This document shows positions 3,836-61,789 of a stretch of DNA of 64,000 bases, piece by piece. Under the pieces are notes generated by a model. It was not told where the DNA came from, ran no database searches, and saw only the letters and a program-made list of their open reading frames with translations. Source of the stretch: Shewanella benthica (GTDB lineage: Bacteria > Pseudomonadota > Gammaproteobacteria > Enterobacterales > Shewanellaceae); NCBI GenBank assembly GCA_023284085.1, contig JAKVHY010000032.1, forward strand, positions 1-64,000, given 5' to 3'. Every line of letters begins with the position of its first letter. Positions within the stretch are counted from its first letter, which is position 1. A program made the translations under genes and the position numbers.

Positions 3836-5023
3836 ATGAAAGCGTTACTACGCTTAAGTGTTTTTGTTGTGCTGGCTCTGCTTACGACGGCATGTTCTCT
3901 GTTAGAGGTAAAACTTGAAAGTGGTGTGGTACCTCTGCCACAAGAGCAGCTAAATATGCGGGTATTTAGTCGTGATTTTAGCAGCACTTTTTACAGTCGG
4001 GTTGAGCAGACTGCCGATCAGATTTCAGCGCTTGAATCTAACGATGAGCAAGATATTTATCTGAAATCTAACGCTCTGATGTGGAAGATAAATGCTGAAC
4101 AGGCGCTGCAGAGGACTATTTTTCAGGCCTCACCTGTGGCTGCTATGGTCGATACCTGGGCATTTACGGCGCAGATGAGTGAATTTTATGACACTGGCGC
4201 GGGTAAAACCCTATTTGGTGAGCAACAAGCGCAGGTTATCGAGACCAGCAGGGCATTAGAAGCTCAGTTTGAGAAGACGGTTAAAGGTTTCGTCTCCCAG
4301 AGTGACTTCAACAACAACCGCGATTTTATCAAACAATACGTGCTGGAAAATCCCCTTACAGACATCACATTTAGTCGCAAGTCGGCATTCAATGACTGGC
4401 TAATATTCAGAGAGATCAATGAATTTGAAGCCGTGACTACCTTTGGTTCAGTGCCGGAAGTGATGAGTGATATCTCAGATCGTATGGCGATGATCTCTGA
4501 GCAGATGCCCAAAATATTAGGTTGGAAAGCCGAGCTCTATGCACTGCATTCCAATATCAATGCCGAAGAAATCCAGGCAACCCTAGTGAGCATCAGTGAG
4601 ACATCGGCAAGGTTTCGGGAGTTGATGGCACAGAGCCCTGAGATGATGCAAAGCCTAGCCGTGGATATGCGACGTGAGCTGAGCCCCTTACTACAGCAGC
4701 TCAGTGATTCTACCGACGATAAACTTAAGCAGCTATCGGTTGAGCGTCAGGCACTTGAATTGATGGTTAAGAATGAGCGTTTGGCTCTGGAAGAGATGGT
4801 AACCAGGGAGCGTGTCGCCGGGGCGGCTAACCTGGATGAGATCTCCAAACATACAGTAGAGGTAGTTTTTCAGGAACTGACCAAGACTCTTAAGAGTCTG
4901 ATCCTCTATTTCGTGCTCTTTTTGCTAGTGGTTTTCTTCGCTCCTCTTGGTCTTGGCGTCTGGTTGGGTAAGAGAATGGGAAATAAGAAAGCCAATAAAT
5001 TAAGTAAGGAGACGATTTCCTAG
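3836..5023 (+). CDS. Predicted lipoprotein with coiled coil and C-terminal membrane anchor
   Basis: 395 residues. An N-terminal signal ends in a lipobox-like LLTTAC with Cys about residue 20. A long helical, Glu/Gln-rich region follows, with a probable coiled coil around 240-340 that resembles methyl-accepting protein helices. A hydrophobic segment LYFVLFLLVVFFAPLGLGVW lies near 357-376, then a basic tail. No sensory or signalling motif is recognised. The topology suggests a periplasmic body held at both ends. GGGGG lies upstream of the ATG. The TAG stop is also the first unit of a heptamer array that fills the gap to the next gene. Confidence 0.75.
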   Translation: MKALLRLSVFVVLALLTTACSLLEVKLESGVVPLPQEQLNMRVFSRDFSSTFYSRVEQTADQISALESNDEQDIYLKSNALMWKINAEQALQRTIFQASPVAAMVDTWAFTAQMSEFYDTGAGKTLFGEQQAQVIETSRALEAQFEKTVKGFVSQSDFNNNRDFIKQYVLENPLTDITFSRKSAFNDWLIFREINEFEAVTTFGSVPEVMSDISDRMAMISEQMPKILGWKAELYALHSNINAEEIQATLVSISETSARFRELMAQSPEMMQSLAVDMRRELSPLLQQLSDSTDDKLKQLSVERQALELMVKNERLALEEMVTRERVAGAANLDEISKHTVEVVFQELTKTLKSLILYFVLFLLVVFFAPLGLGVWLGKRMGNKKANKLSKETIS

Positions 5024-5066
5024 TTCCTAGTTCCTAGTTCCTAGAGCCTAGAGCCTAGAGCCTAGG
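5021..5066 (+). repeat. TAG-phased heptamer array
   Basis: Three copies of TAGTTCC (5021-5041) are followed by three of TAGAGCC (5042-5062) and a partial unit. The first TAG is the stop codon of the lipoprotein gene. CTAG recurs every 7 bp; since CTAG is palindromic and 7 is not a multiple of 3, the array places TAG stops in all six frames. A related array follows mtrB. Confidence 0.9.
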
Positions 5067-6667: not shown

Positions 6668-7717
6668 ATGAAATATTCCCGAGTATTTATCAATAGCCTG
6701 GCATATGAACTGGCACCTGAAGTTGTGTCAACTTCCGAATTAGAATCTCGTTTGGCACCTCTATATAAGAAGTTTCGCATCCCAATGGGGCAACTTGCCG
6801 CATTAACCGGGATCACCGAGCGTCGCTGGTGGCCAAAGGGTCATAGATTATCAGACGGTGCTCTGGCCGCTGCACACAAGGCTATTGATGAAACCGGCGT
6901 GAAAGTGAGTGATTTAGGCGCCGTGGTTTATACCGGGGTTTGCCGCGATCAGCATGAGCCAGCAACGGCGTGCCGTATCGCAGCAGAACTCGGGGTGTCG
7001 AAAGATACAGCCATCTATGACATCAGTAATGCTTGTCTTGGCGTGCTCTCTGGGATCTTAGATATTGCTAACCGCATCGAACTCGGTCAAATTAAAGCTG
7101 GCTTAGTGGTCTCCTGTGAATCCGCCCGTCATATTGTCGATATCACCATAGATAATATGTTGGCCGATCAAACCATGCAGAACTATGCCCAGTCTCTGGC
7201 TACCTTAACCGGTGGCTCTGGAGCAGTAGCCGTCTTGCTTACCGATGGCAGCTTGCCATTAAATACCGATCGTCAACATCAGCTGTTAGGCGCGAGTCAT
7301 CTTTCTGCACCTGAGCACCATAACTTGTGTCAATGGGGCCTGCAGGAAGCGGGTTTACATCTCTACCGTGAGTTTATGCGCACCGATGGTGTGACACTAC
7401 TCAAAGAGGGAGTTGAGCTTGCCCGTCATACCTGGAGTCATTTTCTGGAGCAGCGTGACTGGGTGGTGGGGCAGGTCGATAAAGTGATCTGTCACCAAGT
7501 GGGGTCAGCAAACCGCCTGAAAGTGCTCAATGCACTGAATATTCCCCCAGAGAAAGAGTTTCCTACTTATCAACTGCTGGGCAATATGGGGACAGTTTCT
7601 CTGCCCGTCACAGCAGCAATGGCCCACGATCAGGGCTTCCTGAAGAAGGGTGATCAGGTGAGTTTCTTAGGCATAGGTAGCGGACTTAACTGCATGATGC
7701 TTGGGATCAAGTGGTAA
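6668..7717 (+). CDS. oleA: OleA, acyl-CoA head-to-head condensing enzyme
   Basis: First enzyme of long-chain olefin synthesis: a thiolase-fold, KAS III-like enzyme that joins two fatty acyl-CoAs into a 2-alkyl-3-ketoacid. 349 residues. The nucleophile is Cys123 in SNACLGVLSG; Glu97 in RDQHEPAT, the base described for OleA, is present, as are His276 in CHQVGSANR and Asn306 in LLGNMGTVS. The following oleB, oleC and oleD in the usual order make the assignment firm. In Shewanella this pathway makes polyunsaturated C31 hydrocarbon; that product is family knowledge, not visible here. Confidence 0.95.
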   Translation: MKYSRVFINSLAYELAPEVVSTSELESRLAPLYKKFRIPMGQLAALTGITERRWWPKGHRLSDGALAAAHKAIDETGVKVSDLGAVVYTGVCRDQHEPATACRIAAELGVSKDTAIYDISNACLGVLSGILDIANRIELGQIKAGLVVSCESARHIVDITIDNMLADQTMQNYAQSLATLTGGSGAVAVLLTDGSLPLNTDRQHQLLGASHLSAPEHHNLCQWGLQEAGLHLYREFMRTDGVTLLKEGVELARHTWSHFLEQRDWVVGQVDKVICHQVGSANRLKVLNALNIPPEKEFPTYQLLGNMGTVSLPVTAAMAHDQGFLKKGDQVSFLGIGSGLNCMMLGIKW

Positions 7718-7771
7718 TGAGTTACAGCCATTAGTGCTGTTTTAGCGCGTTTCAGTCCCATACCCCACATA

Positions 7772-7807
7772 ATCACGTTATGCGCCTCGAGTTTGAGGCG
7801 CGGTGAT
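7772..7807 (+). promoter_or_regulatory. Hairpin in the oleA-oleB intergenic leader
   Basis: GCGCCTC (7782-7788) pairs with GAGGCGC (7795-7801) around loop GAGTTT. An outer ATCAC/GTGAT pair extends it. It ends about 23 bases before the oleB start and lacks a T tract, so it looks more like an mRNA stabiliser or processing site than a terminator. Confidence 0.55.
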
Positions 7808-7830
7808 GCAAAGAATATTTAGGAAGAGTC

Positions 7831-8703
7831 ATGTTAGACACTCTGTTTCCCTTCAAGCGCAATTATCTCGACAGAAATGGTCATAAGCTACAGTACGTAA
7901 ATGAAGGCCAAGGTGAGCCTGTGGTCATGGTTCATGGCAACCCTAGCTGGTCTTTCTATTATCGAAATCTGGTGTCTGCTCTGAGCGGTAACCACCAGTG
8001 TATCGTGCCGGATCATATCGGTTGTGGTCTGTCTGATAAGCCGGATGACACTGGCTATGACTACACATTGAAGAATCGTATCGACGATCTCGAAGCCTTA
8101 CTCGAACATCTAAACGTCAAAGAAAACATTACCTTAGTCGTACATGACTGGGGCGGGATGATAGGCATGGGTTACGCTGCGCGTTATCCTGAGCGGATAA
8201 AACGTCTGGTTATTCTCAATACTGGCGCGTTTCATCTTCCTCAATCTAAGCCGTTTCCTTGGCCCTTGTGGATCTGCCGTAATACCTTATTAGGTACGGC
8301 TCTGGTTCGTGGTTTCAACGCCTTTTCATCCATAGCCTCCTATGTTGGTGTTAAACGTAAACCTATGCCGAGTGAGATACGTAAAGCCTATGTGGCGCCT
8401 TTCAATTCTTGGGCTAACCGGATCTCGACCTTGAGGTTTGTCCAGGATATTCCCCTCAGAGAGGGTGATAGAAACTATGAGTTGGTCTCTGAAATAGCCG
8501 CCAGCCTGCCAAAGTTTGCCAATGTGCCGACTATGATCTGTTGGGGCCTGAAAGATTTCGTTTTCGATAAGCATTTTCTTGCCCAGTGGAAAGTAGAGAT
8601 GCCCCATGCGAGCGTGCATGAATTTGCAGATTGCGGTCACTATATTCTTGAAGATGCCACTGATGAAGTCGTTGGGTATATTACTCAGTTTATGAATAGC
8701 TAA
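7831..8703 (+). CDS. oleB: OleB, beta-lactone decarboxylase
   Basis: Alpha/beta-hydrolase of the haloalkane-dehalogenase type that decarboxylates the cis-beta-lactone made by OleC to the final cis-olefin. 290 residues. The oxyanion region HGNPSWSF is at 35-42, the nucleophile is Asp106 in VVHDWGG (Asp instead of Ser, as in OleB and dehalogenases), and the catalytic His270 lies in DCGHY. Asp242 in GLKDF is a candidate acid residue. AGGAAGAG precedes the ATG. Separate oleB and oleC genes are typical of gamma-proteobacteria; some other bacteria have an OleBC fusion. Confidence 0.95.
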   Translation: MLDTLFPFKRNYLDRNGHKLQYVNEGQGEPVVMVHGNPSWSFYYRNLVSALSGNHQCIVPDHIGCGLSDKPDDTGYDYTLKNRIDDLEALLEHLNVKENITLVVHDWGGMIGMGYAARYPERIKRLVILNTGAFHLPQSKPFPWPLWICRNTLLGTALVRGFNAFSSIASYVGVKRKPMPSEIRKAYVAPFNSWANRISTLRFVQDIPLREGDRNYELVSEIAASLPKFANVPTMICWGLKDFVFDKHFLAQWKVEMPHASVHEFADCGHYILEDATDEVVGYITQFMNS

Positions 8704-8740
8704 TACTCGCGGTCAGCTTTTTAGCGAGAGGATAAAATAC

Positions 8741-8770
8741 AAATAAGCGGTCAAGATTGACCGCTTATTT
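8741..8770 (+). terminator. Strong hairpin between oleB and oleC (attenuator or stabiliser)
   Basis: A perfect 13-bp stem, AAATAAGCGGTCA (8741-8753) with its complement at 8758-8770, around loop AGAT. There is no clear T tract beyond the stem, so readthrough into oleC, 29 bases on, is likely partial or complete. Confidence 0.6.
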
Positions 8771-8799
8771 CATATAAGCAATGAGAAAGGTCATCGAAC

Positions 8800-10545
8800 A
8801 TGTCAGCCTCTTTAACTGCCAAGCATTCTTCAACAGTACAAGACAGAGGATCGGGTGCAAATCTCTGTCGTCACCTCATTAGCGCCGCAAGCCATTCCCC
8901 TGAAGATCTCGCCGTAGCGGTACAAACAGCTAGAGGGTCTATTTTCTCTGCCAAAACGCTGGAATATCAAGAGCTCAACTTTTCCGAGCTCAATCAACAA
9001 AGTGATCGTTTAGCCCATGGCCTAAATGCCTATGGGATAACGCGTGGCATGAAGGCCGTGTTGATGGTGACCCCGAGTGTCGACTTTTTTACGTTAACCT
9101 TCGCCCTGTTTAAGGCGGGCGTTGTGCCTATCTTGGTGGATCCTGGCATGGGGGTGAAGAACCTCAAGCAATGTTTCATCGAATCAGAGCCCGACGCCTT
9201 TATCGGCATTCCTAAAGCGCACCTAGCCCGTAAGCTCTTTGGTTGGGGCAAGGGCTCGGTTAAGCATCTGGTGACAGTAGGTGGTCACAGTTTGTTTGGG
9301 GGAGTCACACTGGAAGCCATCGCAGCACATGGCTCATCAGAGCCTTATGAGATGCTCTGGCTAGACCAAGATGAGATGGCCGCCATCTTGTTTACCAGTG
9401 GCAGTACCGGGACGCCCAAGGGGGTTGTCTACTCCCACAAGATGTTTGAAGCTCAGATAAGCGCTCTGAGAGATGATTACGGCATTGAGCCAGGTGAACG
9501 TGACCTGGCTACTTTTCCGCTATTTTCTCTGTTTGGTCCCGCATTAGGCATGGCCTCGATTATTCCAGAGATGGATGCCAGCAAGCCGATAACGGCCAAT
9601 CCTGATTACTTGTTTGCCGCTATCGAGAAGTACCAATGCAGCAATATGTTTGTCAATCCGGCTTTGATCGAGAGGTTAGGGCAAGCGGGTGTGCAAGAGG
9701 GACAGGGCGTTGAGGCTAGTCAGCACAAGTTGCCAAGCATAAAACGTGTCATATCGGCCGGCGCACCGGCGACTATCTCCTCTATAAAGCATTTTAGCAA
9801 GATGTTGAGTTATGGCGTGGAAGTGCTTAACTCCTACGGTGCCACCGAGTCTCTGCCCCTGAGCAAGATGGGCAGCCAAGCACTGTTTGACACCAGGGCC
9901 ATCACAGATAATGGCGGCGGGATTTGTGTCGGTGACGCCATCTCAGGTGTGGATATTGCCATCATAGAGATCACCGAGAAACCTATCGAAGTCTGGAACG
10001 ATGAGCTCAGACTGGAGTCTGGCAAGATCGGTGAGATAGTCGTTAAAGGCCCCATGGTGAGCCGCAGTTACTATCGCCGTGATAGCGCGACCGAACAGGC
10101 TAAGATTCAAGATGGTGACATGATACGTCACCGTATGGGCGATCTCGGGTATCTCGACAGTGAAGGCAAGTTATGGATGTGCGGCCGTAAGGCCCATAGA
10201 GTCGATGCCGCAAGTGGTAAACGCTATTTTTCCATTCCCTGTGAACGCATCTTCAATACCCATTCCCAAGTCAAGCGCAGCGCATTAGTTGGCGTTGAGG
10301 TCAATGGCGATGCTGGTACCCCTGAGATTGTGCCTCTGCTGTGTATTGAGCTGGATAAATCTCTGGCATGCTCGTTAGGCGCCGGTTTATATGCTGAGCT
10401 CAATGCCATCGCCGAGCAACATAGCCAAACTATGGGTATCAAACGTTTTCTCATTCATCCTGAGTTTCCCGTCGATATTCGTCATAATGCTAAGATTTTT
10501 CGTGAGAAATTAGCTGTCTGGGCCCAGAATAAGCATAAGGAATAA
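8800..10545 (+). CDS. oleC: OleC, beta-lactone synthetase (AMP-binding superfamily)
   Basis: ANL-superfamily enzyme that converts the beta-hydroxy acid from OleD to a beta-lactone with ATP. 581 residues. The AMP/ATP P-loop [11 protein letters not shown] is near 197-207, followed by SYGATES near residue 345 (adenine/phosphate contact). An aspartate-containing GDLGYLD segment near 446 contacts ribose in this family. Its position between oleB and oleD identifies it as OleC rather than a generic acyl-CoA ligase. oleD starts 3 bases after its stop, indicating translational coupling. Confidence 0.93.
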
Positions 10546-10548
10546 TCC

Positions 10549-11643
10549 ATGTCAGTGACTCATGCCTCAGTCGACACACAAGCAGCTTCAATTGCTTTAG
10601 CAGAGTTTCATGCTCTGGAACAAGCCGCGCTCCAAGCTCTTAAAGACAAGGTGGAACATGCCTTTGTCACAGGTGCCGGTGGTTTTTTAGGTAAGGCTAT
10701 CTGCCAGCGTTTATTGGCGGCTGGGATTCGGGTGACAGGCTTTGCTCGAGGTGAATATCCTGATTTAACTGCCATGGGCGTGATTATGGTCAGAGGCGAC
10801 ATTGCCGATAAGGCTGCAGTTGTTGATGCCATGAAAGGCTGCGATCTGGTTTTTCATGTGGCTTCCAAGGCGGGTGTCTGGGGCAGCAAACAGAGCTATT
10901 TTTCACCCAATGTGGATGGCGCGGCCAATGTCATCATCGCTTGTCAGCAACTCAAGATCAGTAAGCTTGTCTACACCAGTACGCCGAGTGTGACCTTTGC
11001 CGGTGAGGACGAGTCCGGGATCGACGAGAGTGCGCCTTATGCCGCTAACTATCTGAATCATTATGGCGAGTCTAAGGCGGTTGCCGAGCAGATGGTGCTC
11101 GAAGCCAATAGCCAGACACTGAAGACACTGGCGTTGCGCCCTCATCTTATCTGGGGGCCTGAAGATCCTCATCTGGTACCGCGTGTCATTGAGAGGGCGA
11201 AAGCCGGACGACTCAAGCTAGTCGGCAAAGAAGATAAACTGGTGGATACCATTTATGTGGGCAATGCTGCCTATGCTCATATCCTAGCCGCCGTTAACTT
11301 GTGCAGTGAGGATACGTTGGCTGCGGGTAAGGCTTACTTCCTCAGTAATGACGAGCCAATCACCATGGCTGCCATGTTGAATAAAATTTTAGCCTGCGCA
11401 GACTTGCCGGAAGTGACCAAACGGGTTCCCGCTGGCTTAGCCTATGCCGTTGGTGTCGTGCTCGAAAGTGTCTATGGCGTCCTTGGTAAGACAGATGAGC
11501 CTATGATGACCCGCTTTGTGGCTAAGCAATTGTCTACCAGTCACTATTTCGATATCTCAGCTGCGAAAACAGATTTCGGATATTCTCCTATTATTAGCAT
11601 TGACCAAGGAATGGTAAAACTGAGAGAGTATCTCAAGTCTTAA
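10549..11643 (+). CDS. oleD: OleD, NAD(P)H-dependent 2-alkyl-3-ketoacid reductase
   Basis: Extended SDR/3-beta-HSD-type enzyme reducing the OleA product to the beta-hydroxy acid. 364 residues. After about 35 extra residues comes the Rossmann motif TGAGGFLG near 42-49. A Ser/Thr-rich STPSVTFAG segment sits near 144-152, and the catalytic YGESK (Tyr and Lys of YxxxK) near 172-176. It is the last recognisable ole gene and starts 3 bases after oleC. Confidence 0.94.
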   Translation: MSVTHASVDTQAASIALAEFHALEQAALQALKDKVEHAFVTGAGGFLGKAICQRLLAAGIRVTGFARGEYPDLTAMGVIMVRGDIADKAAVVDAMKGCDLVFHVASKAGVWGSKQSYFSPNVDGAANVIIACQQLKISKLVYTSTPSVTFAGEDESGIDESAPYAANYLNHYGESKAVAEQMVLEANSQTLKTLALRPHLIWGPEDPHLVPRVIERAKAGRLKLVGKEDKLVDTIYVGNAAYAHILAAVNLCSEDTLAAGKAYFLSNDEPITMAAMLNKILACADLPEVTKRVPAGLAYAVGVVLESVYGVLGKTDEPMMTRFVAKQLSTSHYFDISAAKTDFGYSPIISIDQGMVKLREYLKS

Positions 11644-54846: not shown

Positions 54847-57018
54847 TTAGTTACCGTGAAGTTCCATCAACTTCTCTGGAGAGTGACAAGTTGAACAGGT
54901 TTCTTTAGCACGATTTTGAACGTCTTCAGCACTGATACCATCTAAGATACCGCCGTTTGTTTCAATGTGAGACTTGCCTGAATCACTGAGGTATTTCTGA
55001 TGACAGCTTAAACAGGCCCCTGCATCTGAAGAAACATAGATACCACCTTTATCGAATGTTTCCATATTTGGATAAGTCCAAACACGTTCAGGAGAACGGC
55101 CCAATTTAATACCGTCATCGGTATGACAGGTCATACAGTCAGTTTTAATTACAGTGCTTGAACCGACACCTGCATACTTGAGGTAGTGGCCTTCAGCTTC
55201 ATGCGCTTTATAGGCAAAGCTAGTGGCTTTGTCATACTTGCCAGAATTGCGCACAGACTCTTTAATTGACTTATCTGATGTATGACAAGTTTGGCAATTG
55301 ACACCATTGTCGTAGTGATAAATCTCTTGGTTGTGACACCCCTGACACTTAGATGCATCGATAATGTCACGGCGCATTGTAGCCTCAACTTCAGGTTTTT
55401 CACCTGTACCGGACCAAACAAAGTGGTATGGTGCATCTTTCACTTCTATAGAACGCGTGTTATCAGAACATTCAGTCATTACAACTTCTGCAACGCCATA
55501 GCCGCCATTGTTGAAACAAACTTCTACAGCAGACCAAAGCTCAAAAGTTTTACCCGCTGCATCAGTTGGTAGTTCAAAGTTATCGCCGATGATAGTGAAA
55601 GTTTTAGTTCCTTCATCGTAGCTACCATCTTGTAGTTTTATACGGCGATCGCTGTATGATGCCTCTGTATATGCTGGGTAGTCTTTATCACTATCCCAGG
55701 CAACAACGACTCGAGTTCCCTGATTAATAAATTCACCGGCGATAGCTACGCCATCTTTATCGAGAATTTGAACCTCGAAGCTAAATTTACCATCAGTTAA
55801 GCCTATGTTGCTGAACTTAACAGTCATCGCTTCTGCGTCTTTGTATGCTTTTAGCACATCACCGTGACGTTTCTCTGCACTGCCTGTACCAGAATAGGTA
55901 TCAGTAGAGTTATGACAGGAAACACAGTTTGTACTGCTGTGGTTTTGAGATGGTTTCTCTGTGTGGCAACCGATACAAGCAGTATTGCTTAAATCAGCTT
56001 TAAATAGGTCGGCATTTGCTGGTGCATTTTCACCTTCTAGGTGACAAGAGCTACAGTCAGCTGCTGGGCCTTGTGGGAACATGACCTTACCGTAATCATG
56101 GATACCGCCGCCATAACCGATCACCTTGTATGGAGCTGGAACCATGCCTTCAGGTGTGCTGGTCATTCTGTCTTGTCCCTTATGAATCGCATGGATCATA
56201 AAGGTAAAGTCAACACTGTTACCACTCTCTGGATCACCCGATGTAGCAGTATGGCAAGATACACAGTTTTCTAAATTGATACGACGGCCACCGTGGAACT
56301 CTAAGCTATCTGGCTGGTGACAGGTGTAACAGGTTTCGATTGATACTACTTCACGAGTCTGAATGCCTTCAGTGGTGCCAGTAGATGGCTGCCAGTCGAA
56401 GTTAGCATTTGCAGCAAAGCTTGGTAACTCAAGTTCCAATGTGGCACGTTGGGTGTAGTCAGCACTGTAAACCACTTCAACAGGCGTTGTGACACTGCCG
56501 ATATTTTGTTGGAAGGTGTAAGTATACGTACCGTCACCATTATCAACAAAACAGGTTTCACAATCACTGGCTTTTTCTACATTAGCCTGGAATTGATTCG
56601 TTGGATTAATATCTGACTCACCCTCAGGAATCCAATCTGGATTGGGTGCTTTTTCAGCATTGATGTAGGCTTGCCACTGATAGCCTCTATCAGCTCCTGT
56701 CTCGCCCATCAACTCAGTGACATGTGTGAGTTGAGCTATACCGAATCTTAGGTCGTGGTCTTTAGTCAGGCCGAGAACGGCAACACCATTATCATTTTCA
56801 AGACTGAAGTCGACGGTGACTGTGCCCGCTTCGACAGTAGCATTAGTAAATGTCGCATTGACACTCTTAGCCGAGTCTATATTTACGCCAACGGGACCTG
56901 GTTTGCCATCTTCACCATTTTTACCATCATCACCGCCACAGCCAGCCAGAGCAATAGATAAGGCTCCGGCCGCCAATAGCGCTTTAGATGCTGCACTAAA
57001 ATTGAACTTTTTCATCAT
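54847..57018 (-). CDS. omcA: OmcA, outer-membrane surface decaheme cytochrome
   Basis: 723 residues (MR-1 OmcA 735). Lipobox LAGCGG near 24-29. Ten CXXCH motifs: CYTCH, CVSCH, CSSCH, CIGCH, CVSCH, CQGCH, CQTCH, CMTCH, CLSCH, CSTCH. Distinctive OmcA features are VLGLTKDHDLRFGIAQLT near 85-102, RRINLENCVSCHTATSGDPE and the C-terminal KSHIETNGGILDG. A CX15C pair lies in the second beta domain. Start at 57018 with AGGGAAT upstream. Cell-surface terminal reductase partnering MtrC. Confidence 0.95.
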   Translation of the reverse strand: MMKKFNFSAASKALLAAGALSIALAGCGGDDGKNGEDGKPGPVGVNIDSAKSVNATFTNATVEAGTVTVDFSLENDNGVAVLGLTKDHDLRFGIAQLTHVTELMGETGADRGYQWQAYINAEKAPNPDWIPEGESDINPTNQFQANVEKASDCETCFVDNGDGTYTYTFQQNIGSVTTPVEVVYSADYTQRATLELELPSFAANANFDWQPSTGTTEGIQTREVVSIETCYTCHQPDSLEFHGGRRINLENCVSCHTATSGDPESGNSVDFTFMIHAIHKGQDRMTSTPEGMVPAPYKVIGYGGGIHDYGKVMFPQGPAADCSSCHLEGENAPANADLFKADLSNTACIGCHTEKPSQNHSSTNCVSCHNSTDTYSGTGSAEKRHGDVLKAYKDAEAMTVKFSNIGLTDGKFSFEVQILDKDGVAIAGEFINQGTRVVVAWDSDKDYPAYTEASYSDRRIKLQDGSYDEGTKTFTIIGDNFELPTDAAGKTFELWSAVEVCFNNGGYGVAEVVMTECSDNTRSIEVKDAPYHFVWSGTGEKPEVEATMRRDIIDASKCQGCHNQEIYHYDNGVNCQTCHTSDKSIKESVRNSGKYDKATSFAYKAHEAEGHYLKYAGVGSSTVIKTDCMTCHTDDGIKLGRSPERVWTYPNMETFDKGGIYVSSDAGACLSCHQKYLSDSGKSHIETNGGILDGISAEDVQNRAKETCSTCHSPEKLMELHGN

Positions 57019-57494
57019 GATTATTCCCTGCAATAGTTTTAATCATCACTGAGTCGCTACTTAATCGTTTGCTTTATAAGCTTGTCGATATATAAGAGTA
57101 ATTCTCATTATCAACTTGTTGTTAAACAGCAACTTAGTGTGTGGAATTTATTTCCCTTGTTAAGGCTAACGAAGCAACCAATTTTTAGCAGTTGTTTTAA
57201 TCGCTTTATGTGAACTAGGTCTGACTATTTCTTTAGGGGTAGATGAAAAGAGGGGTTTTCAGCCGATTTTAAGGATCGGATAAGCTAAACACTCGTGGAG
57301 GTGTTAAATATTTCTCAGGTGTTTAGTGGGATTTGATATTTCGTTGTTATTGGGTGGTGTTCTTAGCCTGCGGTGTTAGGTATCTAAATAGTGAGTGTTA
57401 GAGTGTTACTTTTTAGATATAAAAAGCAGGAAGGTTTACTTCCTGCTTCAGATTGCTCAATTATACTATTTTCGTAGCTCGTAGCTCAATGTAC
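57019..57494 (-). promoter_or_regulatory. omcA upstream region
   Basis: Contains a Fur-like site GATAATGAGAATTACTC (minus strand, 57096-57112), about 80 bases before omcA. It also holds the module shared with mtrC (57143-57171, 57214-57222 and 57225-57241). The terminator of the upstream cytochrome lies at 57421-57450. No gene in the interval. Confidence 0.65.
57421..57450 (-). terminator. Terminator of the extra decaheme cytochrome gene
   Basis: AGCAGGAAG (57425-57433) pairs with CTTCCTGCT (57439-57447). On the minus strand a T5 tail follows. Confidence 0.85.
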
Positions 57495-59654
57495 CTAATA
57501 CTGAGTTGGATGTACCGCATCGACGCCGTTTGTTTTACCTTCGGCATGACAAGTTGCACAGCTTTCACTTCCTGGGACGTAGCTTCCTCTGGTGTCGTTA
57601 GCTGCGCCACCATTGGTACGGATATGGGCCACTAAAGCGTCTGTCGCACCATGACAACTCACACACGTTGCCGCGATAGGTGAGAATTCAACGGGCCCTA
57701 GTACTGAGTCTGTTGATGGTGTTGCAACCATAGCGCTCAGTCCATCCATCTTTAGCTGGCCCTTATCATGACAGACAGCACAGTTGCCATAATGCTCAGG
57801 GAAAGTCACAGGATCTTGGCTCGAGCGCTTGCTGGCATGATGTGCATGAATACGGACTTTAAAGTCGATATGATCTTGAATCGCTTTCGAGTCAGCGCCT
57901 GAACGAGTGGGGTTATGACACATCTGACACTCGCCCTCGAAGTTGCTGTAACTGCCATTGTGTTTGAAGCCGATACCAAACTTACCGATAAACTTCTCAT
58001 CATGGCAATTGGCACAGGTATTGTTACTGACAACCACTCTTCTGGCCATCACGCTAGTATCACCATCTAGATTGAACGCGACAAGCTCGCCGGTGATCAC
58101 CGCTGGATTGATAGACTCATCGGTACCGGTTCCACAGATAACTCCCATTAAACTGTCTCTGTCGACACACATCTTAGTGGAAACAACGCCAGTTGCTGCT
58201 TGACTGGCGTCGGGTGTTAACGATGTGGTGGTCGCATATCGATAAACCCCATTACTGACCGATGTAGGAGTCATTGAGCGTAAGTCTACTTTTTGTGTTC
58301 CTGAGCCAAAGTCTATGTCATTGCCAAAGCCGAAATAGAGGTTGCTCAATGAGATACGAGCATCGGCATCGGGACTCATCACAGCGCTAGTGAGTGCGCT
58401 ATCGGTAAACTCGACATCGAAGATGAGCATACCACTTGCTATAGATACTGAACCTGGCACTAAGCTCGCCGAGTAGCTGTCCTTGGCATTATCCTTGGCA
58501 ATCGCGTCGGTCATATGGTGTCCTGCACCTTCTTGGCCTTGGTCTGCATGACAGGTGCTACAACTGTGGTCGGGTTGATACTTATCATGCATCTCAGATT
58601 TGATTACCGCGGGATCGCTTGAGTCTGAATGACATGAACCACAAGCGAGAGCTCTGTGATGTTTAAAGTTTGCAGCATCGGCTGGCGCTGCTTCGCCTTC
58701 GATATGACAGGTACGGCAATCGTATATATCGGCAGGGAAGGTGACATCTTGGTAGTCATGGACACTACCGCCATAGCCCACCATAAAATACTCGGACTTG
58801 TGGATCTTATGCACCATATAGCCCATGTCGATAGGGGCACCCGTTTCTGGATCGCCCGCATAGCTGGTATGGCACATTTGACAATTTTCGATGGCGTAAC
58901 GCTTTGAGCCATGCATGATCAATTTAGGTGCCCAAGCGTGGCCATAATTATCACTGTGACAGCGTAAACAGGAGTCTTCTAAAAACTCGACCGTGCGCGT
59001 GTTCTCTGCACTGACCATCTCACCCGATGAAGGTAAAAAGTCATAATGGGTATTAACCAGCTTATTGATGTCGCCATCGGCGCGCATCTCCATGGTGACC
59101 CTATGAGTCAAACTGTCATCAAACGTCAGGTCTAAATCACCTACAGGTTCAACCGCACTGAGATTGAGTTGGAAGGTATAGGTATATTCACCAGCGGAAA
59201 TTTTTTCAACGCACTCTTGTTTACAACTTCCCTCAAGAGATGGTTGGATCTGAGGGCCTGCCAACTCTTCATATCCCGCTGGAATATTCTCTGAAACTGG
59301 TTCGACCATATTATTGATATAGTTGATCCACTGGGGTGTTTTATAACCTTTACCGCTTTGAGGAAGCAGCTTAGCGATCCCCATGCCTAATGTGTCGACG
59401 CCTTCATAGGTATCAAAGTCTGTGATGGCGACACCATTGGCATTTTCAACACTGAAGCTTACTGTGATAACGCCATCGAGAATGTCGACGGCACTAATAT
59501 TGGTGACGAGCTCATTGGCTTGACTAACGGAGAAGCCGACTTCACCGTCTTGGCCATCTTCACCATCTTTACCATCACTTCCACAGCCAAGTAGTAGGGC
59601 AGAGCAGGCCAGTGCGATAAAGCTTAGCTTCGAACCTTTTCTTTTGATATCCAT
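57495..59654 (-). CDS. Additional OmcA/MtrC-family decaheme cytochrome
   Basis: 719 residues, lipoprotein (LLLGCGSDG lipobox near 20-28). Ten CXXCH: CLRCH, CQMCH, CRTCH, CGSCH, CSTCH, CANCH, CQMCH, CAVCH, CVSCH, CATCH. The first half resembles OmcA (YGGSVHDYQDVTFP, then CHIEGEAAPADAANF). The second resembles MtrF (RRVVVSNNTC, YGNCAVCH, GSESCATCHAEG and a final DAVHPTQY). It has a CX3C pair in domain I (SCKQEC) and a CX10C pair in the second beta domain. MR-1 has no gene in this position; other Shewanella carry extra cytochromes such as UndA or MtrG/MtrH here. Predicted surface terminal reductase. Confidence 0.9.
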   Translation of the reverse strand: MDIKRKGSKLSFIALACSALLLGCGSDGKDGEDGQDGEVGFSVSQANELVTNISAVDILDGVITVSFSVENANGVAITDFDTYEGVDTLGMGIAKLLPQSGKGYKTPQWINYINNMVEPVSENIPAGYEELAGPQIQPSLEGSCKQECVEKISAGEYTYTFQLNLSAVEPVGDLDLTFDDSLTHRVTMEMRADGDINKLVNTHYDFLPSSGEMVSAENTRTVEFLEDSCLRCHSDNYGHAWAPKLIMHGSKRYAIENCQMCHTSYAGDPETGAPIDMGYMVHKIHKSEYFMVGYGGSVHDYQDVTFPADIYDCRTCHIEGEAAPADAANFKHHRALACGSCHSDSSDPAVIKSEMHDKYQPDHSCSTCHADQGQEGAGHHMTDAIAKDNAKDSYSASLVPGSVSIASGMLIFDVEFTDSALTSAVMSPDADARISLSNLYFGFGNDIDFGSGTQKVDLRSMTPTSVSNGVYRYATTTSLTPDASQAATGVVSTKMCVDRDSLMGVICGTGTDESINPAVITGELVAFNLDGDTSVMARRVVVSNNTCANCHDEKFIGKFGIGFKHNGSYSNFEGECQMCHNPTRSGADSKAIQDHIDFKVRIHAHHASKRSSQDPVTFPEHYGNCAVCHDKGQLKMDGLSAMVATPSTDSVLGPVEFSPIAATCVSCHGATDALVAHIRTNGGAANDTRGSYVPGSESCATCHAEGKTNGVDAVHPTQY

Positions 59655-59758
59655 AAGTTGCGTTCCATTATCTATGCATCATCTCGGGTTGAGGCACTCA
59701 CTCTTTTTATGTGACAGAGTTTATCGAGTGCTTCACTCTTTATTTTCATTCTGTGTTG

Positions 59759-59911
59759 TTATTTCATTGGATGGACTGCTAGAACGTCTGCCGTAGCCCC
59801 TTGTCCATGCTACTTTATAGGGTGGACTGTCAGTACGTCTGCTGTCGCCCCTTGTCCATGTCACTTTATAGGGTGGACTGTCAGTACGTCAGCTGTCGCC
59901 CCTTGTCCATG
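59759..59911 (-). repeat. Threefold tandem repeat of the mtrF 3' end, including stop codons
   Basis: Three exactly abutting 51-bp units (59861-59911, 59810-59860, 59759-59809), in frame. Each encodes HGQGATADVLTVHPIK (third copy HGQGATADVLAVHPMK) and ends in a stop: TGA, TAG and TAA in order. Copies 1 and 2 differ by one synonymous base change plus the stop. Copies 1 and 3 differ in 10 sense codons, 8 of them synonymous. Confidence 0.95.
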
Positions 59912-61789
59912 ACAGGTTGCACAGCTCTCTGTACCAGAAGTTGCATCTTCCTCGGTCCCCATAAATACAGCGCCTTGCTGAGTCATATGATTCTTTGCAC
60001 TATCAGATGTGTGACAAGCACTACAGATGGCAGCTGTTGGACTCGTGAATGAGCCATCATTTAGCATTAATGGTTGCACAGCTGAGTCAAGTGGCAGTGC
60101 TGCTGTAAGCACACTGTCTTCATCTTCAATATGGCACTGAGCACAGTTACCGATATCACCTGGATACTTGATATCGGCATAATTAGACCTCATCCCTGCA
60201 TGTAAGGTATGGGCTAAATGTTTATAGTCACTGCTGGTTGCTTGTGGGTTTTGTGCCGTTTCATCTGCAGTCTTGAAGTTGTTATGACAAAGCTGACATT
60301 GAGCCTCAGCATCGTTACGCTCGCCGCTGTGCTTCTTCAATTGAGTCAGTACATGACATGTGGAGCAAGTCTCGTTGGTGACGACGACTCTACGGCCTGT
60401 AGCTGTGATATTGGTGGTATCGAAGAACTGATGACTGGCTTGTAAAACTAAAACGGTACTTGTTTCCATCTCACAGTCTGCTAATTGATTGCCATTAGCA
60501 CAGATGCTGCCTTTGATTACAATTGCTCCTCTATCTGTTTCACTTCCTGTGGGGATGGTTAATCCCGTTACTTGATAGGTATAAATGCCATCGGCACCAG
60601 AATCGGGAGTCTCACTGCTTATCGTTAGTCGTTTTGCTGAATTGCTAGAATAATCAAAGCTTGTTCCCCAGTTGGTTTCTACTCCTAATCTGGAGATAAA
60701 ATTAAGTTTGTCTGCACTGTCTGTATAGACTTCACCTGACTCAGGGTTTGAAAGTTTGATACTGAAGGTGACAGTGGTGCCAGAAAGGCTAGCTGCGGTT
60801 ATTTGGGCATTAAATTGAGCTAATGCCTCATCGTTACCACCATCATGTACACTCATGGTCCAATCGGGGTTATGACAAGCCACACAATTGCTGTTATCGA
60901 CTTGGGCTGGATGCCCTTCACCTGCAGGAAAGTTGATATCGGTATGACATGAACCACATGCCTCCATACCCGGCACGCGGGCCCAGTTCATATTTTCAGT
61001 CAATGTTTCATCATTGACATGACAAGTCTGACAATCTGCCAGGGAGCCCGGGAAACCGGTTAAATGTTTACCGTGTATCATCTGCGGGAAGATATTGTCA
61101 TTGCTGCTCACTTTCCCTTCACTATGGCAGGTCACACAGGTTTCTATTTCATTGTATTTGCTACCATGAAACGCCAGATCGTTATGACAAGTGTTACACG
61201 TCTCCATGGAGATCAAATTACGCGTGTAGGCGACTTCACCTGAATCTTGCCAATCGAAATTTTGGTTAGTTGTTGGTAATGCTGTTCCGTCAGGTAAGCT
61301 ATCCCCACCAATTTTAATGACTATGCGTTGGGTGGCCCCCGGCATATAGCTCATCTCATTCATGCCATCGAAAGCTGCACTAAAGGTATAGCTATACTTT
61401 CCATTCTTGTGATCGACAAGCTCGCCAGTACAGCTGCTGGTGCAACTCTCAGAGGTAAAGTACTGCCACTGACTAGTATTTCCGGCATTGGTAAAACCTT
61501 GGGGAAGAAGCTGAGCAGCAATATACGTTGAGCTAGGTATGCCGACAACAGGCTCATCGTCTTGGTTATTGACGCTGTAGTTCACCGTGGCTACGCCATG
61601 AGTAAAAATGACTTCATCAACCTCGACATTAAGTGAAGATATATCGGTAGCAGGAGGACCTCCTGGTTCCCCTGGGTTACCGGGCTCACCGTCATCACCG
61701 CCACAAGCCGTTAGCAGTACAGCAAGGATAAGCGCTGCTGCATTTTTTACGTCAAATACACATATTAGATTGGTAATTAGTTTCATCAT
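59861..61789 (-). CDS. mtrF: MtrF, outer-membrane surface decaheme cytochrome
   Basis: 642 residues (MR-1 MtrF 639), lipobox VLLTACGGD near 24-32. Ten CXXCH: CNTCH, CVTCH, CQTCH, CGSCH, CVACH, CSTCH, CQLCH, CAQCH, CSACH, CATCH. A CX8C pair (CANGNQLADC) lies in the second beta domain. The protein closely follows MR-1 MtrF throughout. AAGGAAG precedes the start, which lies 72 bases after mtrE. After the TGA stop, two further copies of the last 17 codons follow. Surface partner of MtrDE. Confidence 0.95.
   Translation of the reverse strand: MMKLITNLICVFDVKNAAALILAVLLTACGGDDGEPGNPGEPGGPPATDISSLNVEVDEVIFTHGVATVNYSVNNQDDEPVVGIPSSTYIAAQLLPQGFTNAGNTSQWQYFTSESCTSSCTGELVDHKNGKYSYTFSAAFDGMNEMSYMPGATQRIVIKIGGDSLPDGTALPTTNQNFDWQDSGEVAYTRNLISMETCNTCHNDLAFHGSKYNEIETCVTCHSEGKVSSNDNIFPQMIHGKHLTGFPGSLADCQTCHVNDETLTENMNWARVPGMEACGSCHTDINFPAGEGHPAQVDNSNCVACHNPDWTMSVHDGGNDEALAQFNAQITAASLSGTTVTFSIKLSNPESGEVYTDSADKLNFISRLGVETNWGTSFDYSSNSAKRLTISSETPDSGADGIYTYQVTGLTIPTGSETDRGAIVIKGSICANGNQLADCEMETSTVLVLQASHQFFDTTNITATGRRVVVTNETCSTCHVLTQLKKHSGERNDAEAQCQLCHNNFKTADETAQNPQATSSDYKHLAHTLHAGMRSNYADIKYPGDIGNCAQCHIEDEDSVLTAALPLDSAVQPLMLNDGSFTSPTAAICSACHTSDSAKNHMTQQGAVFMGTEEDATSGTESCATCHGQGATADVLTVHPIK

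Follow-up and report, generated by a model that had tools for sequence, protein, structure and literature searches.

Bacterial minisatellites, or VNTR loci, consist of imperfect copies of a unit of tens of bases, arranged head to tail and gained or lost between lineages. Displaced gene ends of another kind are found at integrative elements and in the C-terminal modules of the Rhs and CDI systems, where the old 3' end survives downstream of the new one. The arrays of gene tails described here, each of which spans a stop codon, can be seen as a variant of the minisatellite that appears to show concerted evolution. In contrast to minisatellites, the first unit of a tail array is the end of a working gene, stop included, and the arrays recur behind unrelated genes, with unrelated units, and more often over stops than over starts under the stricter of the tests reported below. 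They differ from integrative elements and Rhs/CDI loci in that neither an element nor a toxin module is present, and in that the copies encode the same peptide.

Homology-facilitated illegitimate recombination is known in S. pneumoniae, Acinetobacter and P. stutzeri (PMC2884548), according to the portion of that paper considered here, in which small segments, some of them highly diverged, are ascribed to illegitimate or homeologous recombination (Genome Biol 2010 R45, PMC2884548). Its homologous and short-homology junctions would place a new gene end before the old one; the difference is that in our case such exchange is read from codon patterns, with no donor or event identified. The passages of the same paper on microdiversity and homeologous loci contain no tandem gene-end copies, and the words "stop codon" are absent from its main text. 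A limited search of the open-access literature, by titles and the beginnings of abstracts, returned no description of stop-spanning gene-tail arrays.

The locus studied lies in a stretch of 64,000 nucleotides from Shewanella benthica (hereafter, the window), which is part of contig C32 of a 5.7 Mb draft genome in 91 contigs (G000). The gene mtrF (59861..61789, minus strand) encodes a decaheme cytochrome of 642 amino acids and ends in TGA. Its product was identified by a match to PDB entry 3pmq, "Decaheme cytochrome c MtrF" (E 7e-265), in an alignment that reaches residue 640 of the 641 queried. The end of the gene is followed by two further copies of itself, all three being read on the minus strand, 51 bases long, placed head to tail without a linker and in the same frame. 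Copy 1 (59861..59911, minus strand) lies inside mtrF and comprises its final 16 codons plus TGA, its first residue being the His of the last CxxCH motif. Copy 2 (59810..59860, minus strand) ends in TAG and differs from copy 1 at 3 bases, one synonymous and two in the stop. Copy 3 (59759..59809, minus strand) ends in TAA and shows 11 base differences from copy 1 and 10 from copy 2. The peptide encoded by copy 1 is HGQGATADVLTVHPIK, that of copy 2 is identical, and that of copy 3 is HGQGATADVLAVHPMK, with two replacements relative to copy 1. An earlier, sequence-only reading had reported that the last 17 codons of mtrF are triplicated in frame with three different stops, which is exact, and that copy 3 differs from copy 1 mostly by synonymous changes, which also holds with the two replacements just mentioned.

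This triplication is more than chance. Tandem Repeats Finder (TRF) gave the array a score of 224, the top of its 8 rows for the window, with a period of 51, 2.7 copies and 91% matches. The array has the composition of a minisatellite or VNTR locus (a unit of roughly 10-100 bases present at least twice, head to tail), and it also offers the open in-frame extension that characterizes programmed stop-codon readthrough. Searched with the array, its own genome returned, apart from the array, no more than seven short matches (16-23 bases), and a search of plasmids gave no match. Further along the strand, a spacer (59655..59758, minus strand) leads from the array to an omcA-like gene. Two consecutive multiheme ORFs that look OmcA-like by eye (54847-57033 and 57495-59654) stand between mtrF and an mtrC-like gene.

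The mtrF copies begin with CATGG and the spacer 3' of copy 3 begins with CAAC, so that CA is common to both. Copy 3 is joined to the same mtrF-omcA spacer that is found directly behind mtrF in two related genomes, G003 and G010. The spacer starts with CAACACAGAATG in the window and with CAATACAGAATG in G003 and G010, and by eye it resembles the gene end CCAATACAGTAG of G010, which suggests that the spacer start behind copy 3 may itself be an older, shorter copy of the mtrF tail.

Three outgroups, G003, G010 and G092, were used to polarise the differences between the copies. With these outgroups, the copy inside the gene carries two derived third-position states, while all four changes assigned to copy 3 fall at third positions (chance 0.012), one of them being a replacement, Ile to Met; the remaining four sense differences are ambiguous after polarisation. 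It had been proposed from the sequence to align mtrF ends so as to learn which copy is ancestral: the comparison assigns two new states to the gene copy and four to copy 3, and no copy is wholly ancestral. Because its assigned changes show a codon pattern, copy 3 probably evolved as a coding end, and it probably served as the end of the gene until it was displaced by copies 1 and 2.

In 97 genomes of the genus, the window's own included, mtrF was sought and matched in 93. By eye, 30 fetched loci were compared over the end of the gene and the 117 bases that follow it, and none of the 29 besides that of the window has an extra tail copy behind mtrF. The count is thus three tails in the genome of the window and one in each of the 29 other loci, these being other species, and within the sampled loci the mtrF array is confined to the window's genome. 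In G010 (L002), whose MtrF is 91% identical to that of the window, an independent 11-base duplication, CAATACAGTAG, lies over the mtrF stop instead of the 51-base array. The two cases together point to more than one duplication of this stop within the group.

The gene in front of the array is a mosaic. When mtrE-mtrF-omcA was compared in 150-base windows, the sequence under study was mostly nearest to G003 (83-98%). A segment of mtrF at 60040..60800 (minus strand) belongs to another allele type, since in 90-base windows most of it, read from about 60800 to 60040, is 83-94% identical to G010 and 43-68% identical to G003, G092 and G094, which are 59-90% alike among themselves; identity to G003 by itself is 49-68% over this stretch, and the flanks of the segment are mostly nearest to G003. 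The C-terminal half of mtrF exists as two very different allele types, one in G000 and G010 and the other in G003, G092 and G094, and this pattern of identities indicates that the middle of the gene and its flanks have different histories. One of the breakpoints falls about 80-130 bases upstream of the tail copies. To find a donor for copy 1 or copy 3, 129 genomes of the genus were searched, and 52 of them gave a match. The best match was in G010 (86% over 388 bases), and G003 matched at 79% over 313 bases and at 90% over a 155-base spacer part. Copy 1 differs from the mtrF end of G003 at 6 positions and copy 3 at 8 (counted by eye), so that a donor was identified for neither. Homology-facilitated recombination would call for a homologous junction on one side, microhomology on the other and an identifiable donor; observed at this locus are the CA microhomology and a mosaic gene, and no tail donor among these genomes.

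A second gene end copied past its stop had been reported at positions 1-130 of the window (plus strand), and it is real: these are probably the last two units of the tail array of phoU, with a unit of about 70 bases, whose start lies at the end of another contig, C17. (Names of genes other than mtrF, such as phoU, hemG, fliG, rsmJ and the RsmF-like gene, were assigned from the look of the proteins and are to be taken as presumptive.) The end of C17 (L063, 1501-1795) contains phoU and then the array; C17 ends and C32 begins within it, and it is probable that the two contigs adjoin, with some number of phoU units between them. All of the 127 genomes searched contain phoU, and its end was compared by eye in 30 fetched loci. 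Tail arrays stand behind it in five species (G000, G003, G010, G027 and G128), with a decayed trace in G073, and none was seen in the other 24 loci within 150 printed bases (36 bases for one). Most phoU copies keep the synonymous codons and the stop of their own gene (TAG in G000, TAA in G003 and G027, TGA in G010), and the last copies tend to deviate (TAA in G010, other codons in G000). In G128 two unit types alternate. A third and very small case in the window is found at 5017..5065 (plus strand), where TTCCTAG, the last 7 bases of the ORF 3836-5023 with its stop, occurs four times over that stop and is followed by CCTAGAG repeats. Elsewhere in the window, at 6668-11643, four genes resemble an oleABCD hydrocarbon cluster.

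Tail copies were surveyed in one 400-kb block each from four related genomes (G000, G003, G010 and G128) and from two other Shewanella (G053 and G091), the related group being set by a phoU identity of at least 97% (89-90% for G053 and G091). Genes were mechanical ORFs of at least 100 amino acids, with overlaps resolved by length. The peptide test looked within 800 bases downstream for copies of the C-terminal codons, aligned from the stop, with a score of at least 40. Copies were found behind 19 of 1229 genes in the related genomes (2/281 in G000, 7/332 in G003, 3/327 in G010 and 7/289 in G128) versus 1 of 643 in the other two (1/315 in G053, 0/328 in G091; Fisher p 0.004). In eight 50-kb stretches of E. 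coli MG1655, with 340 genes, there was no peptide match even at a score of 30 or more. A stricter nucleotide test, in which the repeat needs at least 15 bases inside the gene, revealed 21 repeats over stops versus 3 over starts in the four related genomes (p 0.0003), the stops being 3 in G000, 8 in G003, 2 in G010 and 8 in G128 and the starts 0, 0, 1 and 2. G053 had 1 over a stop and 1 over a start, G091 had 1 and 0, and in the nucleotide test E. coli MG1655 had none over stops and 2 over starts.

In the looser form of this test (without the 15-base condition, score 14), stops and starts numbered 7 and 7 for G010, 11 and 1 for G000, and 13 and 4 for G053, a genome from outside the group. Both biases, towards stops and towards the group, thus hinge on the criterion chosen. 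Many of these looser repeats are of low complexity and merely touch the stop; shuffled downstream DNA gave 0. A control in which gene tails were paired with the downstream DNA of other genes (score of at least 24, three replicates) yielded 4 in G010, 3 in G000, 3 in G053 and 0 in the window.

In all, 21 array genes were considered, 20 from the four related genomes and one from G053, whose single clear array lies behind a moaB-like gene. Four of the 21 are doubtful and are kept in every count: G003:271362 and G003:395908 are repetitive ORFs, and G000:320925 and G128:354278, with offsets of 1377 and 727, are perhaps paralogues. The length of the unit varies from gene to gene (51, 65, 70, 89, 122, 134 and 163 bases). 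From these data, the mtrF array belongs to a class of stop-spanning tail arrays behind unrelated genes in related Shewanella, of which the mtrF triplication is a minor member. In another case, behind a gene at G128:C1:350425-351645 that looks like pilC, the last 10-11 codons (WDMLNVVKGGN) recur within 800 bases as six copies aligned at the stop, which differ mostly at third positions.

Several genes have arrays in more than one species: the hemG-like and fliG-like genes in G003 and G010, the rsmJ-like gene in G010 and G128, a third gene in G003 (184141) and G128 (180998), and the RsmF-like gene in G000, G073 and G128, with traces in G027. The gene and its copies are 0.95-0.99 identical for hemG in G010 and 0.87-0.91 in G003, 0.97-1.0 for rsmJ in G010 and 0.99 in G128, and 0.98 for the third gene in G003 and 0.92 in G128, whereas the genes of the two species are 0.787 (hemG), 0.812 (rsmJ) and 0.778 (third gene) identical to each other. 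For the hemG-like gene, the rsmJ-like gene, the third gene and phoU, copies thus resemble one another more closely inside a species than across species. Provided that the arrays are shared by descent, as common unit borders suggest (by eye), a gene end and its copies appear to undergo concerted evolution.

There are also signs of exchange between alleles. Copy 2 of hemG in G003 is 0.853 identical to the gene of G010, to which the gene of G003 itself is 0.787 identical; in its sense codons this copy departs from its own gene 10 times, always at a third position. At G003:10261, the end within the gene is like that of G128, and the downstream copy and flank are like those of G010 (by eye). In the RsmF-like gene, G003 has a single tail; by eye, this tail and its downstream flank resemble the displaced copy in G000 and G073 and the flank there. 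Two readings fit this pattern: the array has collapsed in G003, or the native end has been displaced in the other genomes.

Combining these data, we consider it fairly likely that the mtrF locus is a small stop-spanning array that arose by duplication, turnover and partial exchange between strains, with copy 3 displaced from the gene. A short tandem duplication would first have been joined at the CA common to the start of the unit and to the spacer, which would put a second 3' end behind the first; duplication across a stop is without cost, since translation still terminates at the first copy. Units would then be lost, regained and homogenised, a step supported in the sister arrays and extended by us to mtrF, and this turnover would leave the gene end and its copies sharing codons and stop within a species. 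Finally, and with moderate confidence, some copies would be the displaced ends of other alleles, brought in by recombination between strains. For mtrF, copies 1 and 2 would represent a later duplication than copy 3, and neither copy 2 nor copy 3 would be expected to yield a product. The evidence that displaced alleles contribute to tail arrays is moderate, and the part of it that comes from codon patterns is modest.

Unlikely, though the most probable of the alternatives, is a local origin by slippage and drift, in which two in-place duplications of the 51 bases were followed by free decay of copy 3, without exchange or any link to other arrays. The CA at the junction and the near identity of copies 1 and 2 suit it, and so does the mismatch spectrum. 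By our own reasoning, mismatches between a gene under constraint and a copy that drifts freely should stand at about 25:25:50 by codon position; they number 61, 53 and 162 in all alignments and 36, 37 and 94 for the nearest copy of the 21 genes, and the latter are so near this expectation that the pooled numbers alone would also fit drift. However, the changes in copy 3 of mtrF lie four out of four at third positions with the stop retained, the gene is mosaic close upstream, and the same genes carry arrays in several species. Outgroup-assigned changes in the copies amount to 9, 9 and 26 by codon position (26 of 44 third, p 0.0004), a larger third-position share than drift would give, but a pooled figure in which related copies are counted more than once, mostly with one outgroup. 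The tail divergence of array genes had opposite signs in different species pairs, and its absolute deviation was slightly above that of other genes (p 0.02, 12 versus 456 pairs), which is not taken as support.

It is very improbable that the copies are a 3' UTR or translation element acting, for instance, on mRNA stability or on the next gene. This idea draws on a copy of the fliG-like tail in G003 and G010 that holds AGGTGG seven bases before the next ATG, but arrays of different genes have no sequence in common by eye, and the relatives compared lack extra mtrF copies. That fliG-like copy (G010, L192; G003, L193) keeps the last seven codons with synonymous changes only; diverged versions are present in G092 (L195) and G094 (L194), and none was seen in G053 (L196).

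We find it hard to credit that MtrF gains one or two C-terminal units through programmed or leaky readthrough, as had been proposed from the sequence. The units are in frame and without a linker, and the first stop is TGA followed by C, UGA-C being a leaky stop context. Against this, the extension is not conserved, as the 29 other mtrF loci are single-tailed; the alignment with the solved MtrF structure ends within a single tail; the added unit has no CxxCH; and the first-copy offset is divisible by three in 4 of the 21 array genes (two of these being doubtful) and not in the other 17, which indicates that the class is not built for in-frame extension. The proposal is thus not supported.

Just as implausible is a scar left by elements that a site-specific recombinase inserts into gene 3' ends, every element carrying in its own version of that end. 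Displaced and synonymously diverged 3' ends are what such elements would leave, but the copies abut with no insert or integrase between them, the neighbouring ORFs look like mtrE and omcA, and the unit length differs between genes. An assembly artefact is very unlikely, for in spite of the 91-contig draft and the phoU array at a contig break, any two copies are 3 to 11 bases apart and phoU arrays stand in three one-contig genomes (G003, G010 and G128).

A low coding density has been described in deep-sea strains, with 77-80% for three strains in the part of the source considered (PMC10059138). It is thinkable that tail arrays contribute to it; mechanical ORFs in the 400-kb samples gave no clear difference in coding density (0.80-0.84 in the four related genomes, 0.81-0.84 in G053 and G091), and the link of tail arrays to deep-sea species is suggestive only. 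As a tentative suggestion, for a share of the gene ends in this Shewanella group a tail array could act as a reservoir in which alleles of the last codons and stop, some of them from other strains, are kept behind the gene and returned to it on collapse or conversion, so that C-terminal codons and stop would change in jumps and not by point mutation. Stacked stops of this kind are a warning against taking them as readthrough. If the preferred reading, duplication and turnover with partial exchange between strains, is true, tail arrays would be a readable record of displaced alleles, and some bacterial gene 3' ends would evolve as parts of repeat arrays, distorting rate estimates and recombination tests there.
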